Program-made: the position numbers and the translations under genes | Shown: in pieces, positions 18,311 through 31,905 of the stretch | Layout of the letters: every line of letters starts with the position of its first letter | Numbering within the stretch: position 1 is the stretch's first letter | From: a virus | IMG/VR virus record: IMGVR_UViG_3300008448_000001 | Location: 140,795 to 204,794 of that record | Direction: 5' to 3' (one strand) | Length of the DNA stretch: 64,000 nt | Notes under the pieces: model-generated | The model's database searches: none | What the model saw: only the letters and a program-made list of their open reading frames with translations | Told to the model about the DNA's origin: nothing

Positions 18311-21088
18311 ATGGCGCCTACGACGCAGTGCCCACAGGGACCGCAGTCACCCGTGTTTGACATCGTCAAATGCGACGTGCCTTGCATTTTCCCTATTCCA
18401 GGTGGAAACTGGCTGATAAACCCACAGGTTCCGCAAGCCCCAGCGGATATCTTTGATTGTCCGTCGCTGCCTGTTCCGTTGCTCGACCCGGATCCAATTT
18501 GCCCAATTCTTTCCGCCCAAGACGACATCACCACCAACGTGGTACCGATCGGAAGCGAAAGAGTTATTTTTACAGTGACAAAGGGTCAATGCTGCGATTA
18601 CGTGTTGAACTTGCAGGTAGACTTTCCCTGTCCGGAAATAACGGGAGAGGCGAACGTCACTACCGTAGGACCTGGCGGAGCACCCTTTGCCAATTTAAAC
18701 GTCAACAAGTCTGGCGATTGCTCCTTTGACATTCAGCTGAACATCGGCTTGCCCAGCCCGCAGCTTGGACCGCAAGGACCGCAAGGACCGCAAGGCCCAC
18801 AGGGTGCAGAAGGCCCACAAGGTGCAGAAGGGCCGCAGGGTGCAGAAGGCCCACAAGGACCGCAGGGGCCGGCTGGCCCACAGGGCCCACAAGGCCCGCA
18901 AGGTTTAATCGGACCACAAGGTTTAATCGGACCACAAGGTTTAATCGGACCGCAAGGAGCGGAGGGACCTCAAGGTACGGCAGGCCCGCAAGGTACACCC
19001 GGCCCTCAAGGCCCAATAGGCCCTGACGGTAATCCCGGGCCCGACGGCAATCCTGGGCCTGACGGTAACCCTGGACCGGACGGCAACCCCGGTCCTGACG
19101 GCAATCCCGGAGACCAAGGACCCCAAGGCGACCGCGGACCCCAAGGTCACCGTGGCCCGCAAGGTTACCCTGGCTACACGGGGGCCACCGGCTATCGTGG
19201 ACCACAAGGGTATCGAGGTCCGCAAGGTTATCGCGGCCCTCAAGGATATCGCGGAGCGCAAGGCTACAGAGGTCCGCAAGGCTACAGAGGTCCGCAAGGT
19301 TACGAGGGTCCGCAAGGGCCACAGGGTCCCCAAGGAAAACGCGGCCCACAAGGCTATCGCGGACCACAGGGCCACCGTGGGCCACAGGGTTACCGTGGTG
19401 CGGAAGGCCCGCAAGGCCCTTGTTGCGAGGGATCGACAGGTACCACTGGGCCAACTGGTCCAACCGGTCCTACAGGTCCAACCGGGCCTACGGGTCCAAC
19501 CGGGCCGACCACGCCTACTTACGAGTTACTCATCAGTTGGGAATTCAACGATCAACTGACGCCCGAGGTTGACCCGCCAGCCCCGTTAAAGTACGCCGGA
19601 GACAGCGAACTTTTCTACGCGGACCCCGACGCGGAATCGGCAAGGCAACAAGCTTTCTCGTTGCACGGTCAGATTTACTTCAACAACGCTTCGCTGGCTG
19701 CGGTCACGCACATCTATGTCGAGAAATCAAACTACAACAGCGTAGACATATCCGCGTTGCTCGCCACAGCTAAACCCACCGACACGTTAAAAACTCGCGT
19801 GATGTCCGACGTCAACAAGTTCGGCATTTATCGAGTCTTGGCCGTCACGGAAGAAACAACGCTTTTCGACTACACAGTTGAAGCGATAACAACTAACGGC
19901 GCTTACACGTTGCTGGATCAGGTCGTTCTCGAAATTCAACCCACAGGTGCCCAGGGTGCAACGGGTGCGACCGGCCCAACGGGTAGCGGTGTGCCGGCGG
20001 GCGGATTGACCGGGCAGGTGCTGGCGAAAAACACTGACACAAATTACGACACGGTTTGGATAGACAACTACGCCAAGGAACTACGCGTCACCGTCAAGAA
20101 CATGTCCGGCGGTGTCATCAACAAAGGCCAAGCCGTTATGGCCACCGGGGCGACAGGGGATACGATCGAAGTTACTCTGGCAAACGCGGACGGTACTGTT
20201 CTTCCACGTTACATGCTCGGCATAGCATCTGAAAACATAGCCAGTGAAGCCTCGGGTTACGTTACCCTGATTGGCGACATGCAACACCTGAATACCCTCA
20301 GCTACACTGTGGGTACGGTGCTGTGGTTGAATCCGAGCACGCCTGGCGGGTTAACGGCGACAGAACCGGCGGCGAGCACTATACGCATGCCGGTGGCCAT
20401 CGTTACGCGGCAGCATGTCGAGAGTGGTCGAATTTATGTCCGCATGTATTTGCAGCAGACGGCTTTGCATGAGCTTTTTGACGTTAAGTTCAGCAGCCTG
20501 CAAAACGGTAATTACCTTCGCTACGATAGCACGCTTTCGGCTTGGAAGAACGATGCAACCAGTCCCACGGGGGCAACCGGAACACAGGGCGCTACAGGGG
20601 CCACGGGCCCAGGCACAACAGTAAATGCGACTGCGACAAACACCGACGCCACGTTCTATCCCGTGTTCGTCGCAGCCGCTGGGAGTAACCAGACACCGAG
20701 TGTCGACACAACGGCACCGTCGCTGAGCTACAACCCGAGCACCGATTTGCTCAACGTTGGCGGTTTGACCGCGAACAAGTACGCAACAGGTACCGGCATA
20801 GTTTCGGTGGTAACGGGTACAACTCGATCGCTGAGCAGTGCGGACAACGGTATTGTCTTAGAGTGCAGCAGCAGTTCGGCAGTGACAGTCACGGTTCCCA
20901 CCGGGCTTCCAGTGGGTTTCACACTTACAATAATTCAAACTGGAACAGGTCAAATATCGTTTAGCGCGTCTGGGACCACGATAAACAACCGTCAAAGCCA
21001 CACCAAGACCGCCGGGCGATGGGCCGTGGTATCGCTGATTCAACGTAGTACTAACAACTTCATTTTGGCTGGGGACACTGCCGCATAA
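18311..21088 (+). CDS. Collagen-like tail fibre protein
   Basis: 925 residues. Residues 1-152 form an N-terminal head. Residues about 153-400 are Gly-X-Y repeats, mostly GPQ with runs of [12 protein letters not shown] and a C-terminal GPT block. The only clear break is GPCCEG at 369-374 with adjacent Cys371-Cys372. The remainder is a beta-rich C-terminal region with two short collagen-like inserts ([13 protein letters not shown] near 550 and [15 protein letters not shown] near 760). It should form a trimer whose collagen helix is a fibre shaft, with the C-terminal domain binding the host. Typical of phage tail fibres with collagen shafts. Confidence 0.85.
18767..19513 (+). repeat. Collagen Gly-X-Y coding repeat
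   Basis: About 750 bp of tandem 9- and 18-bp units encoding [15 protein letters not shown] and GPT triplets. Local sub-arrays are nearly identical at the DNA level (five GPDGNP units around 19020-19110; TTTAATCGGACCACAAGG three times near 18905), so the length is probably variable through recombination or slippage. The antisense strand is open here only because of the repeats. Confidence 0.85.
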
Positions 21089-24932: not shown

Positions 24933-25229
24933 ATGGCAACACACAAACTGCTGGTACTCGAGGACACAGTTCTCCTTACACTTGCGACAAACCCGAATTT
25001 TGTACGGGAATTTCCGTTCCTTGCGAGCGGTGCCGTGCCCACAGCAAAGAAAAGCTGCAAGCCCTGCAATCGGGCGGCGTCCAAACGCGTGCAGGCGATG
25101 CAAACCATAAAGCAGTCTATTGTCAACATGGGTGTTGAGAAGAAGAAACGGCTGAAAGAGATGCTTAGCGCGGAGAAGCTTCGCCTTCGTGTTGCTCAAA
25201 ACGGTAAGGTCGTAGAGTACACTTTTTAG
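24933..25229 (+). CDS. Small basic protein with CxxC
   Basis: 98 residues. Basic and helical in the second half (KQSIVNMGVEKKKRLKEML) with KKSCKPCNRAASKR near residue 40; one CxxC alone is not a full zinc site. It is the last gene before a 0.9-kb gene-free block. Function unknown. Confidence 0.6.
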   Translation: MATHKLLVLEDTVLLTLATNPNFVREFPFLASGAVPTAKKSCKPCNRAASKRVQAMQTIKQSIVNMGVEKKKRLKEMLSAEKLRLRVAQNGKVVEYTF

Positions 25230-25244
25230 ACCTTAATTTAGGGT

Positions 25245-26117
25245 AAAAACGTGTCAGAATAATATGCAGACGACTTATCGTTTGCAGGTCGGTCGAAGTA
25301 CAAAGGCAAACGTACTTTCACTGGCTGAAGTCGAGTATCGCAAAGACCGCACTCACTTGATGTAAAAATCAAGCCGAGGGTAACAGCGTCTTTTGTCTTT
25401 GCGATATTTGCGGGCGGCTAGCACTTGTGTCGTCCTCACCGAGATCTTCTCTATATGGGTCTTGTGAAGCATTACTGTGTGGCGTGTAAAAGTACACGTG
25501 GCACGGTTTCGGGGTTGAACTAAAAGTCTGAAAAGACATCCCCCAGTTAGTGAAAAACTGTTCTGATGAAAAGTCCTAAATTTCTGTGGGCTTCTTCGTT
25601 GGCGTCTTGTTGTATCTTTTTACGCAAGGCGAAGCCAAAAAGCAGTGAACGTTCCGAGAACATACCTTCTCGTTAAAACATAGGTAACGTGGTTACTAGC
25701 TCCACTAAAAAAAGGCTAGCAGATGTTTTGATCAAAAACGATTAAAGCACCCAGTGCGAGTCTGGCGTTTTGTCCAACGTAAAACGATACGCAAAGCTAC
25801 CGCGAAGGAGCCATTAATAATCCGGGGAAGTTCTGGATCGCTTAGCAAGCGGCAACAGCTCGTACCCTTAGGCTAACAACCTAAGCTAGCCTGGGCATAC
25901 AGGTAAAAATGCAGAGCTCACTCTTTTAGGGGTCCTAGTTACAGGATTCGATTACCGCAAGCATAAAGACTGGTGAGAGTCTTTACTGAGTAAGCGGTAT
26001 ACGGCACCATGAATCAGCCTCTACGTGGCGGTGCTAGATAACCAACCGATGATTCATTCCGCGTGTTTTACCACGCAAGCTCTACCGCATTCAGTGGATG
26101 CGGCGGTGGGGCTTTTT
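25245..26117 (+). ncRNA. Candidate giant structured RNA (GOLLD/ROOL-like or novel)
   Basis: No credible gene in about 900 bp, but many hairpins. Examples: TATCGCAAAGAC (25336-25347) with GTCTTTGCGATA (25395-25406); CGACTT (25271) with AAGTCG (25328); GTCT-GAAA-AGAC (25526-25537); CGAGAA/TTCTCG (25655/25667); CGTTTT/AAAACG (25766/25781); CTTAGG/CCTAAG (25867/25880). Further 3' are TAAAGACT/AGTCTTTA (25964/25978) enclosed by TACCGC/GCGGTA (25953/25994), and ATGAATCA/TGATTCAT (26009/26050). It ends in an intrinsic terminator. Size, ornate folding and phage location with a nearby tRNA recall GOLLD and ROOL RNAs, but I cannot confirm the class. End points are approximate. Confidence 0.7.
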
Positions 26118-26118
26118 A
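26077..26118 (+). terminator. Intrinsic terminator of the structured RNA
   Basis: AAGC (26077-26080) pairs with GCTT (26111-26114) around a strong CCGCAT/ATGCGG stem (26085-26090 / 26098-26103), followed by a T-rich run. It lies 26 bp before the next start codon and so ends the upstream RNA. A further hairpin, GCGTG/CACGC (26061/26072), sits just upstream. Confidence 0.75.
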
Positions 26119-26143
26119 CTTTTGCATTCACAAGGATAAAATT

Positions 26144-26620
26144 ATGTTTTCTTTTTTGTTCAAAAAGCAAACCCCGGCAGCGACTCCCGTCAAGCGGAAA
26201 ACCAAGTTTGAGCAAGCTGTGGCGTTTGCAAGATCCGCATGGCCGTTGCCGTCCGACTACTCCGATTGGTTTGCTCATAACCATTTCGACGTGCTAGTAA
26301 TGCGCGGTTTGGATGAGCCAAGGGACTCGCAATCTCCGTTACATCGTGTAATGGAGGCATGGCACGCTAGCGTGCCAAAGGAGCTGCGTGACGAGCTGCT
26401 CGCTTCGGAAGAGTACCGCCAAGCGGTACTGCATGTGTTCTCGAGGCAGACGGAAGAAAGCCTTTCCAAGTTGCTTTCAAAAATGGGCGATCACGGCTAC
26501 TGGGCGCCGATGGCGGCTTGTGTCCGGGATGTCCTGGCTCGCAAATGGTACGGGGCGATGCGAATTGTCCGTCTCAACGATGACGGGAAAATTCATTACA
26601 ACTACACCGTACGCGACTAG
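26144..26620 (+). CDS. Hypothetical protein
   Basis: 158 residues starting at ATG 26144 after CAAGGATAAAATT, a good ribosome-binding site. An upstream in-frame extension would run through the terminator and is rejected. MFSFLFKKQ is not a clear signal peptide. Residues downstream (PKELRDELLASEEYRQAVLHVF) are helical. No family recognised. First gene after the structured RNA; followed by three strong hairpins. Confidence 0.7.
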   Translation: MFSFLFKKQTPAATPVKRKTKFEQAVAFARSAWPLPSDYSDWFAHNHFDVLVMRGLDEPRDSQSPLHRVMEAWHASVPKELRDELLASEEYRQAVLHVFSRQTEESLSKLLSKMGDHGYWAPMAACVRDVLARKWYGAMRIVRLNDDGKIHYNYTVRD

Positions 26621-27222: not shown

Positions 27223-28017
27223 ATGAAACCTGAAGAACTAGCAACGATTTTAACTGAGCACGCGAAGTGGTTAAAGGATGAAGGTGGCAAAAGGGCCAAC
27301 CTGCACAGGGCCGAACTTCGCGGGGCCAACCTTGGTGGGGCCGAACTTGCCATGGTCAAACTTGCCGGGGCCGACCTTCGCGATGCCAACCTTCGCGGGG
27401 CCAACCTTGGTGGGGCCGAACTTGCCATGGTCAAACTTGCCGGGGCCGACCTTCGCGATGCCAACCTTGCCGGGGCCAACCTTCGCGGGGCCAACCTTCG
27501 CAGGGCCTTCCTTTTAGGAGCCAGCCTTATCGGGGCCGACCTGGAAGGGGCCAACCTTTACAAGGCCAACCTTATCGGAGCCAACCTTGCCGGGGCCAAC
27601 CTTCGCGGGGCCAACCTTTACAAGGCCAACCTTATCGGAGCCAACCTTGACGGGGCCGACCTTCGCGGGGTCAACCTTCGCGGGGCCAACCTTCGCCGGG
27701 CCAATCTTGAAGGGGCCGACCTTCGCGGGGCCAACCTTAACGGCGCTGACCTTGACGATGCTAATCTTACTGGGGCAAGAATCGACACCCTGGTTTGTCG
27801 CATGGATATCGATCGTTGGTCGATCTGCGTTTACGCGGACCGAACATCCATCGGTTGCAAAACACAACCTAATGAAAACTGGTTGGCTTGGACATCGGAA
27901 AGCGAAGAGATCAAGAAGATGCACTCCGATGCGGCTTCTTGGTGGGCAACGCACGGCGAGTTTATCAAAGCAGCAATCCGCCACGTGATAAAAAATTCGA
28001 AAGGCAATAACACATGA
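27223..28017 (+). CDS. Pentapeptide-repeat protein 1
   Basis: 264 residues. Residues 1-25 (PEELATILTEHAKWLKDEGG) are the helical cap common in this family. Residues about 26-185 are A[N/D]LxG pentapeptides that fold as a right-handed quadrilateral beta helix. The C-terminal 75 residues ([22 protein letters not shown], then [16 protein letters not shown]) form a separate domain shared with the two other pentapeptide genes here. Such helices can mimic DNA (as in Qnr proteins), but this function is not established for this group. Stop overlaps the next start (ATGA). Confidence 0.85.
   Translation: MKPEELATILTEHAKWLKDEGGKRANLHRAELRGANLGGAELAMVKLAGADLRDANLRGANLGGAELAMVKLAGADLRDANLAGANLRGANLRRAFLLGASLIGADLEGANLYKANLIGANLAGANLRGANLYKANLIGANLDGADLRGVNLRGANLRRANLEGADLRGANLNGADLDDANLTGARIDTLVCRMDIDRWSICVYADRTSIGCKTQPNENWLAWTSESEEIKKMHSDAASWWATHGEFIKAAIRHVIKNSKGNNT
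27316..27465 (+). repeat. Exact 75-bp tandem duplication
   Basis: Two identical, adjacent 75-bp copies (27316-27390 and 27391-27465), each encoding five pentapeptides (one turn and a quarter of the beta helix). This indicates recent unequal recombination or slippage changing helix length by 25 residues without loss of frame. Confidence 0.95.
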
Positions 28018-28673
28018 AACCTGAAGAACTAGCAACGATTTTAACTGAGCACGCGAAGTGGTTGCGTGGCGAGGGCGGAAAGAAAGCCAACTTTTACAGT
28101 GCCAACCTGGTTAGTGCCAACCTTTGCGGTGTTTATATGCGACATTGCGACTTTCGCCTGGCTGAGCTTGTACGGGCCAACCTGGTCTATGCCAACCTTG
28201 GCGAGGCCAACCTGCGAGGTGCCAACCTGTTAGACGCTAAACTGTTCGAGGCTAACCTGGAAGGTGCCGACTTGCGGCATGCCAACCTAAGCGAGGCCAA
28301 CCTTCGAGGTGCCGACCTGCGGCATGCCAACCTGGAAGGCGCCAATCTGTACCGTGCAAACCTGGAAGGCGCCAATCTGTACCGTGCAAACCTGAAAGGT
28401 GCAAACCTGAGCCGCACCGTCGTGATCGGCGCTTGCATCAACGCCGCAATTTGTAGGATGGATTTTGGAGGTTGGTCGGTCTGCGTTTACGCGGACCGAA
28501 CAGCTATCGGCTGCCAGCAGCGCATTAACGAGGACTGGTTAGCGTGGACGCCTGAAAGCGAAGAGATCAAGCAGATGCACGAAGATGCGTCTGCTTGGTG
28601 GAAGTCGCACGGCGAAATGATTAAAGGCGTGATACGGGGTGTGATGGCAAAAGCGAAAGGCGGTGACACGTGA
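28014..28673 (+). CDS. Pentapeptide-repeat protein 2
   Basis: 219 residues. The first 50 bp are nearly identical to the start of the previous gene, so the two arose by duplication. Pentapeptides run from about 27 to 138; the C-terminal domain ([21 protein letters not shown], then [16 protein letters not shown]) is shared. Overlaps both neighbours: ATGA upstream and GTGA downstream, implying coupled translation. Confidence 0.85.
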   Translation: MKPEELATILTEHAKWLRGEGGKKANFYSANLVSANLCGVYMRHCDFRLAELVRANLVYANLGEANLRGANLLDAKLFEANLEGADLRHANLSEANLRGADLRHANLEGANLYRANLEGANLYRANLKGANLSRTVVIGACINAAICRMDFGGWSVCVYADRTAIGCQQRINEDWLAWTPESEEIKQMHEDASAWWKSHGEMIKGVIRGVMAKAKGGDT

Positions 28674-29440: not shown

Positions 29441-29514
29441 GTGACCGTAGCTCAATAGGTTAGAGCAGGAGACTCATAATCTCTCGGTTCCCGGTTCAAG
29501 TCCGGGCGGTCACA
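29441..29514 (+). tRNA. tRNA-Met(CAT) (or tRNA-Ile2)
   Basis: A complete cloverleaf: acceptor GTGACCG/CGGTCAC, D stem GCTC/GAGC, anticodon arm GGAGA-CTCATAA-TCTCT with anticodon CAT, T arm CCCGG-TTCAAGT-CCGGG, discriminator A. No encoded CCA. CAT reads AUG; if lysidine-modified it would read AUA, so tRNA-Ile2 cannot be excluded. A palindromic hairpin around GCTACGTAGC follows. Confidence 0.95.
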
Positions 29515-29577
29515 CTGCTGACAACTGCTACGTAGCAGCTGTTACCTTGTTTGTTAGACCCTTTCACAGGAGTTGAT

Positions 29578-31041: not shown

Positions 31042-31333
31042 TCGCAGGTAATGCCAATTTCGACAGCAATCAGCTAGCCATTTCGGTGGCTAGCTAACGC
31101 AAGGCGGCAACAGCCTAAGTTGCACTAACAAATAAGCCGACCGGGTACGCGAACAAGTTCCGACAGACGGTCAGGTCTAGGTCTCAAAGAATAGCCCTGA
31201 CGCCCGTTAGGCCACCACAGGCAAGCGATTCGGATAGCAAAACATGAGGAGAACAGTCATGAAGCGATGATGATTACAAGACGAGCCGAACTCGGAGGCA
31301 AAACCGATAAGGCGGCAACAGCCTGAGTTGCGA

Positions 31334-31457
31334 GGATCGGCGGCGTGGACAACGACACGCGGAAAGCTGTGCAACGCCTAAACGCATAGACGCAACGGAT
31401 TCGGAACAGATCGAATACCGCCAAGTATGAAAAGCAGGTGTAATTCCTGCCCGATCC
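31334..31457 (+). ncRNA. tRNA-like module 1
   Basis: Acceptor-like GGATCGG (31334-31340) pairs with CCGATCC (31451-31457). A GCGTG-GACAACGA-CACGC hairpin sits in the D-arm position and GCAGG-TGTAATT-CCTGC in the T-arm position, with a 7-nt loop that is not the canonical TTCRA. The central part is long (about 75 nt), containing CGGATTCG/CGAATaCCG instead of an anticodon arm. It is not a normal tRNA. Confidence 0.5.
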
Positions 31458-31619
31458 TTTGCATATGCGAAACCTGCTACTGGTAGCCTACGGGCATGCA
31501 GAGTCCAGTGAAATGGTTAATTTTGTGCCGCAAGGATCTGCTTCCGGAGATAATTCGAAAGGAGCAGGGAGCGGGTAATCGGGTCGTGCCGAGCAAAGAC
31601 ACAGCCGGAGAGACGGCGA

Positions 31620-31713
31620 GGATCGGCGGCGTGGACAGTGACACGCTCACCAACACTCCTGCAAGTATCCAATTGAGTGCAGGCGACAGCAGGTGCTAAT
31701 TCCTGCCCGATCC
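31620..31713 (+). ncRNA. tRNA-like module 2
   Basis: GGATCGG (31620) pairs with CCGATCC (31707). D-arm-like GCGTG-GACAGTGA-CACGC and T-arm-like GCAGG-TGCTAATT-CCTGC are near copies of module 1. The centre can pair CCTGCA with TGCAGG around a 14-nt loop, so there is no 7-nt anticodon loop. Confidence 0.5.
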
Positions 31714-31794
31714 TTTTCGGAGCGGTACGAAAGAAAGATAGTAAAAGGTGCGAAATGACACCAGATAAGCAACCGCTTGTGAGGCTGGTAAATT

Positions 31795-31878
31795 GGATCG
31801 GCGGCGCGGGACCACTGAAAAGTAATCCGCGATGGTGCTCAAAGAGCGGTCTAACATGTTCGAATCATGGCCGGTCCG
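31795..31878 (+). ncRNA. tRNA-like module 3
   Basis: GGATCGG (31795) pairs with CCGGTCC (31871, one G-U). Here the T arm is canonical in the loop: CATG-TTCGAAT-CATG. A CGCGG/CCGCG hairpin with a 17-nt loop replaces a standard D arm and no clear anticodon arm is seen. Preceded by a hairpin CCAG..AAGC-AACC-GCTT..CTGG. Confidence 0.5.
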
Positions 31879-31882
31879 CTGA

Positions 31883-31905
31883 GTTATTAAGGCGTTCTTA
31901 ATAAC
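31883..31905 (+). terminator. 9-bp hairpin closing the second RNA block
   Basis: GTTATTAAG (31883-31891) pairs perfectly with CTTAATAAC (31897-31905), loop GCGTT, followed by a T-rich stretch (GATGTTTGTTGGTTTGTTTT). Terminator-like but without an uninterrupted T run. Confidence 0.5.

Follow-up and report, generated by a model that had tools for sequence, protein, structure and literature searches.

A large structured phage RNA with a conserved 5' core: a probable new class analogous to GOLLD and ROOL

Non-ribosomal RNAs of great size and elaborate structure are few, and the functions of most of them are unknown. One of them, GOLLD, is a homo-oligomeric RNA nanocage (14-mer). Both GOLLD and ROOL are associated with phages, lie close to tRNA islands and form RNA-only cages, and their functions are unknown (PMC12286853). 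In GOLLD the 3' region is conserved and the 5' region is less so, and the GOLLD env-38 RNA is found downstream of a Met-tRNA (PMC12286853). Here we compare with these systems a phage-borne block that an earlier note on the same DNA had taken for a giant structured RNA, maybe of a new class, with a possible fit to GOLLD or ROOL.

A non-coding block between two phage genes

The window, that is, the whole stretch of DNA analysed, makes up the final 64 kb of a virus record of 204,794 bp, with genes for a large terminase and for a baseplate wedge protein. Because this terminase shares no more than 29% identity with those of named phages (e.g. Salmonella phage Arash), we assign the record to a large tailed phage that is uncultured and lacks close isolated relatives. 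Among its other genes are one for a collagen-like GPQG protein (18311-21088) and, downstream of it, two adjoining genes with pentapeptide-like A(N/D)LxxA repeats (27223-28673), whose repeat number varies among relatives.

The block is bounded by two plus-strand genes. The upstream one (24936-25229; 97-98 aa, no function assigned) has a stop codon that ends at 25229, and the downstream one (26144-26620) starts at 26144, with no coding between them. Neither strand of 25230-26024 contains an ORF of at least 60 aa; at 795 nt this is the longest such block of the contig, the runner-up having 454 nt. Every ORF of at least 30 aa in the block is frameshifted, stopped or start-less in at least one relative. 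The block is non-coding. The earlier note had seen no convincing ORF here, which is borne out, and had named a conserved coding alignment as the finding that would speak against an RNA; the broken small ORFs leave no such alignment. The RNA itself is placed at 25230-26125 on the plus strand (about 890 nt), from just after the upstream stop codon to the terminator tail, with inferred and provisional ends.

Relatives, covariation and helices

Folded as a single sequence, the block has a minimum free energy of -308.7 kcal/mol, compared with -256 ± 8 kcal/mol for shuffles (z -6.6). Its energy excess of -50 kcal/mol is the largest among 91 contig windows of 896 nt (the next is -40), and one other of these windows has a slightly lower z. 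Windows of 240 nt within the block deviate only mildly (z between -1.4 and -3.3, against a contig mean of -0.7), and single-sequence energy alone is therefore weak evidence.

Relatives were located via the upstream genes, as IMG/VR contigs with the same arrangement. Homologues of the RNA lie at the corresponding position of three further IMG/VR contigs: L005/L012 (100% identical), which is probably the same phage as the window, L006 (95%) and L007 (80%). In the distant relatives L008-L011 and L035-L042 (49-65% at the anchor proteins), the upstream gene is followed directly by other genes and the RNA is absent. When whole records of RNA-less relatives and of Acaryochloris phage A-HIS1 were searched with a 5'-core covariance model, no match was found, and BLAST against phages and plasmids returned no further homologue, the plasmids giving chance matches only. 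Beyond the known contigs, DNA-pattern scans of IMG/VR and GTDB likewise yielded only chance matches; for the pattern TAGCACTTG..ATCTTCTCT, none of the 34 loci scored with the HMM. As no homologue was found outside it, the RNA is known only from one phage clade.

The alignment holds three distinct sequences and effectively two divergences. RNAalifold gave a consensus energy of -247 kcal/mol, compared with -169 ± 8.6 kcal/mol in column-shuffled alignments, and 23 two-sided compensating pairs, compared with 9.5 ± 2.6. None of the 60 column shuffles, which preserved the gap pattern and local conservation, reached the observed energy or pair count. In an independent-fold test each sequence was folded alone and helices were kept only if probable in all three; this left 21 helices, in which 12 pairs are compensatory, 9 one-sided, 127 invariant and none broken. 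A recount over 150 pairs found 99.6% of cells paired (2 of 449 fail) and 11 two-sided changes, a result matched by none of 500 shuffles and reduced to 0-1 when the partner was slid by 1-3 columns. As expected of an RNA, the plus strand of the alignment folds far better than its complement (-247 versus -183 kcal/mol). Alignment to homologous phages was a check proposed in the earlier note, with homologues devoid of compensatory changes counting against its reading; compensatory changes are what the three sequences display. With three distinct sequences only, this covariation is real but thin, and the helices proposed outside the core are provisional. It is the comparative evidence that settles that the folding exceeds chance, which single-sequence energy alone would not.

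Conservation is concentrated at the 5' end. Scored per 100 nt against L007, 25300-25499 is 94-95% identical while the flanking genes are mostly 70-78% identical; over the 5' 300 nt identity is about 95%, and towards the 3' end it falls to 52-76%. The 3' third aligns poorly with L007 and is partly resolved. Non-coding DNA that is better conserved than the genes beside it must have its own function, and the 5' 300 nt of the RNA are, judged by these identities, under strong selection. Taken together, the alignments show an RNA that is structured, conserved and plus-stranded.

The conserved 5' core domain (25253-25565), of high identity to L007, consists of helices predicted independently in all three sequences, at 25265-25286, 25287-25326, 25330-25411, 25412-25435, 25437-25466, 25474-25507 and 25526-25537, all on the plus strand, as are the features below. 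The third of these is a long arm with inner hairpins and a perfect 12-bp stem formed by TATCGCAAAGAC (25336-25347) and GTCTTTGCGATA (25395-25406). The last is a GAAA-tetraloop hairpin (GTCT-GAAA-AGAC), in which GTCT/AGAC becomes GTCC/GGGC in L007 through one two-sided change and one wobble. Beyond the core, the hairpin at 25696-25719 has three two-sided compensatory pairs (CTAGCT/GGCTAG versus CTGACG/CGTCAG) and that at 25725-25748 has two. A nested stem at 25953-25999 (outer 25953-25958/25994-25999, inner 25964-25971/25978-25985) has three two-sided pairs in all, with 25964-25985 changing from AAAGACT/AGTCTTT to AAAGATC/GATCTTT between sequences. It is followed by a 3' three-way-junction module (26009-26057), kept in L006 and replaced in L007. 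A search for long-range covarying helices returned one weak candidate, 25694-25699/25970-25975, near chance level. A hammerhead, suggested by CTGATGA at about 25564, was rejected because this motif is not kept in L006 or L007.

The RNA is closed by an intrinsic terminator hairpin and U-tract at about 26078-26122 (AGCTCTACCGCA...TGCGGCGGTGGGGCT-TTTTTACTTTT). Although overlooked by a simple terminator scan, it can be seen both in the sequence and in the relatives. The hairpins listed in the earlier note are all present as described, including its 12-bp stem, its GAAA-capped stem, both nested stems (25953-25999 and 26009-26057) and the terminator just 5' of the next gene. In L006 (6600-7360), the terminator and a ribosome-binding stretch are duplicated about 650 nt downstream, around a gene cassette missing from the window; this looks like cassette exchange between repeated terminators.

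Possible roles of the RNA

We consider it probable that the block gives rise to a trans-acting, stable, terminator-ended large phage RNA with a conserved 5' core. The block would encode a plus-strand non-coding RNA of about 890 nt, ended by its own intrinsic terminator and made within, or processed from, a late virion and host-interaction operon. It would act in trans as a stably folded molecule, with the conserved function in its rigid 5' core of about 300 nt and phage-specific modules in its faster-evolving 3' part. By analogy with GOLLD and ROOL, it could be a late abundant RNA that serves as a scaffold or holder of host or phage RNA or protein partners.

The main rivals are a role as a 3' UTR and a role as a leader. 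No promoter was recognised, k-mer enrichment in intergenic DNA gave no phage promoter motif, and the RNA starts at the upstream stop codon without a gap; it may therefore be processed from the late operon mRNA. The same features would suit a structured 3' UTR that stabilises or localises the mRNA of the upstream virion operon, as would the fact that RNA-bearing phages always have the same upstream gene. However, this gene is a conserved anchor that is also present in relatives lacking the RNA (eight contigs of more distant relatives), and an RNA of 890 nt whose core is better conserved than the gene itself goes far beyond the needs of a stability hairpin. We therefore regard the 3' UTR as rather unlikely.

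A leader of great length acting in cis, as an attenuator or like a riboswitch, would control the gene behind the terminator, which does stand directly before the next gene and closes the most variable part of the RNA. That gene, however, is not conserved: the RNA is followed in the window by a 158-aa gene, in L006 by a different one, of 107 aa, and then the second terminator copy, and in L007 directly by yet another gene. The RNA and its terminator stay while the following gene is exchanged, which disfavours a dedicated cis-switch. The most conserved part, moreover, is remote from the terminator, 600 nt away at the 5' end. A resemblance of the 26009-26057 module to an intergenic stretch just upstream of ORF090 in the unrelated cyanophage A-HIS1 could speak for a leader: 26016-26050 (35 nt) is 88.6% identical to FN436268.1 50315-50349 (E 3e-4 with a 40-nt query). 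The sequences of the closing stem differ and pairing is possible in both. As a structured module the A-HIS1 segment was rejected, as it folds no better than shuffles, and we therefore claim sequence similarity alone. On balance a leader is unlikely.

Alternatively, the RNA could belong to GOLLD or ROOL as a strongly diverged member, for which the phage setting, the length of about 890 nt and the nearby tRNA-Met and tRNA-like arrays would speak. The search with Rfam covariance models that the earlier note had called for was run (Rfam 15, gathering threshold and E<=10, permissive filters), and no family, GOLLD and ROOL included, matches the block. The RNA is unlike any Rfam family and, judged by these models, is neither GOLLD nor ROOL. 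Its polarity is also the reverse of that in GOLLD (PMC12286853), with 94-95% identity to L007 at the 5' end and 52-76% at the 3' end. Such a divergent member is very unlikely. What stands of the earlier note is the giant structured RNA of perhaps a new class, upheld by homologues, compensatory changes, strand asymmetry, absence of coding and lack of an Rfam match; its fit to GOLLD or ROOL is not supported. Finally, a reading as coding sequence in decay, or as an element acting at the DNA level (an origin, or a site of packaging or recombination), would agree with the lack of coding, and such blocks can hold repeats or sites, but this reading is largely refuted, and almost certainly wrong, given compensating changes that include G-U pairs, a strong plus-strand bias and conservation stronger than in genes.

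tRNA company and comparison with known large RNAs

A tRNA-Met gene (29441-29515, plus strand) lies 3.3 kb downstream of the RNA and is found in all RNA-bearing contigs. tRNAs (RF00005) occur in four of the four RNA-bearing contigs and in none of seven RNA-less relatives, a suggestive association that is confounded by kinship. No tRNA was called inside the large RNA.

Unannotated arrays of cloverleaf tRNA-like elements (74-143 nt) were observed at 31042-31905 of the window (plus strand; elements at 31334-31457, 31620-31713 and 31795-31877) and at G000:C1:70,520-71,018 and 72,542-72,684. Their acceptor-like stems read GGATCGG...CCGATCC, and the T-arm-like hairpin mostly has the form GCAGG-7/8nt-CCTGC; TTT(T) comes after most of the elements, and GGCAACAGCC(T/G)AAGTTGCGA or AGCCGGAGAGACGGC precedes several of them. 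Pieces of the array are rearranged in the contig of L006 and partly in that of L007, and are absent from the four RNA-less relatives searched. No Rfam family fits the elements, which may serve as tRNA decoys or represent a new family of small RNAs. Only one was called as a tRNA (G000:C1:70737-70811, 75 nt, anticodon UCA); ARAGORN labels it SeC, but it is too short for a selenocysteine tRNA. It is possibly a UGA suppressor; TGA is the stop of 52 of 189 long ORFs.

It could be speculated that the RNA forms RNA-only multimers. A bolder proposal, which we put forward as doubtful, is a new giant-RNA class unrelated in sequence to GOLLD, ROOL and OLE, with a fixed 5' core, that assembles an RNA-only quaternary structure and perhaps works with phage tRNAs or tRNA-like elements. 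A further independent class in phages, again accompanied by tRNAs, would mean that phages evolved giant RNAs repeatedly, and it would offer a reference against which to test how general RNA cages or tRNA association are. The conserved core, at about 300 nt, is compact and lends itself to in vitro synthesis.

OLE, raiA and HEARO are, like this RNA, large ornate non-coding RNAs, but they are bacterial, they have no Rfam match here, and a phage structural-gene region is a different genomic setting. The RNA shares with large ornate phage RNAs a non-coding nature and extensive covariation-supported helices. ROOL is similarly phage-borne, large, ornate, near tRNAs and of unknown function; it differs in that no covariance-model match at E<=10 and no sequence similarity were found, and of its complex secondary structure with multiple pseudoknots we see here the complexity and one possible long-range pairing, near chance. 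As is typical of GOLLD, which is often >800 nt, carried by phages or prophages and near tRNAs, the RNA exceeds 800 nt, is phage-encoded and multi-helix and has tRNA genes nearby; the difference is again the absence of a covariance-model match. We conclude that this is probably a new RNA class in the style of GOLLD and ROOL, whose likeness to them, by analogy, remains in size, phage context and tRNA company.
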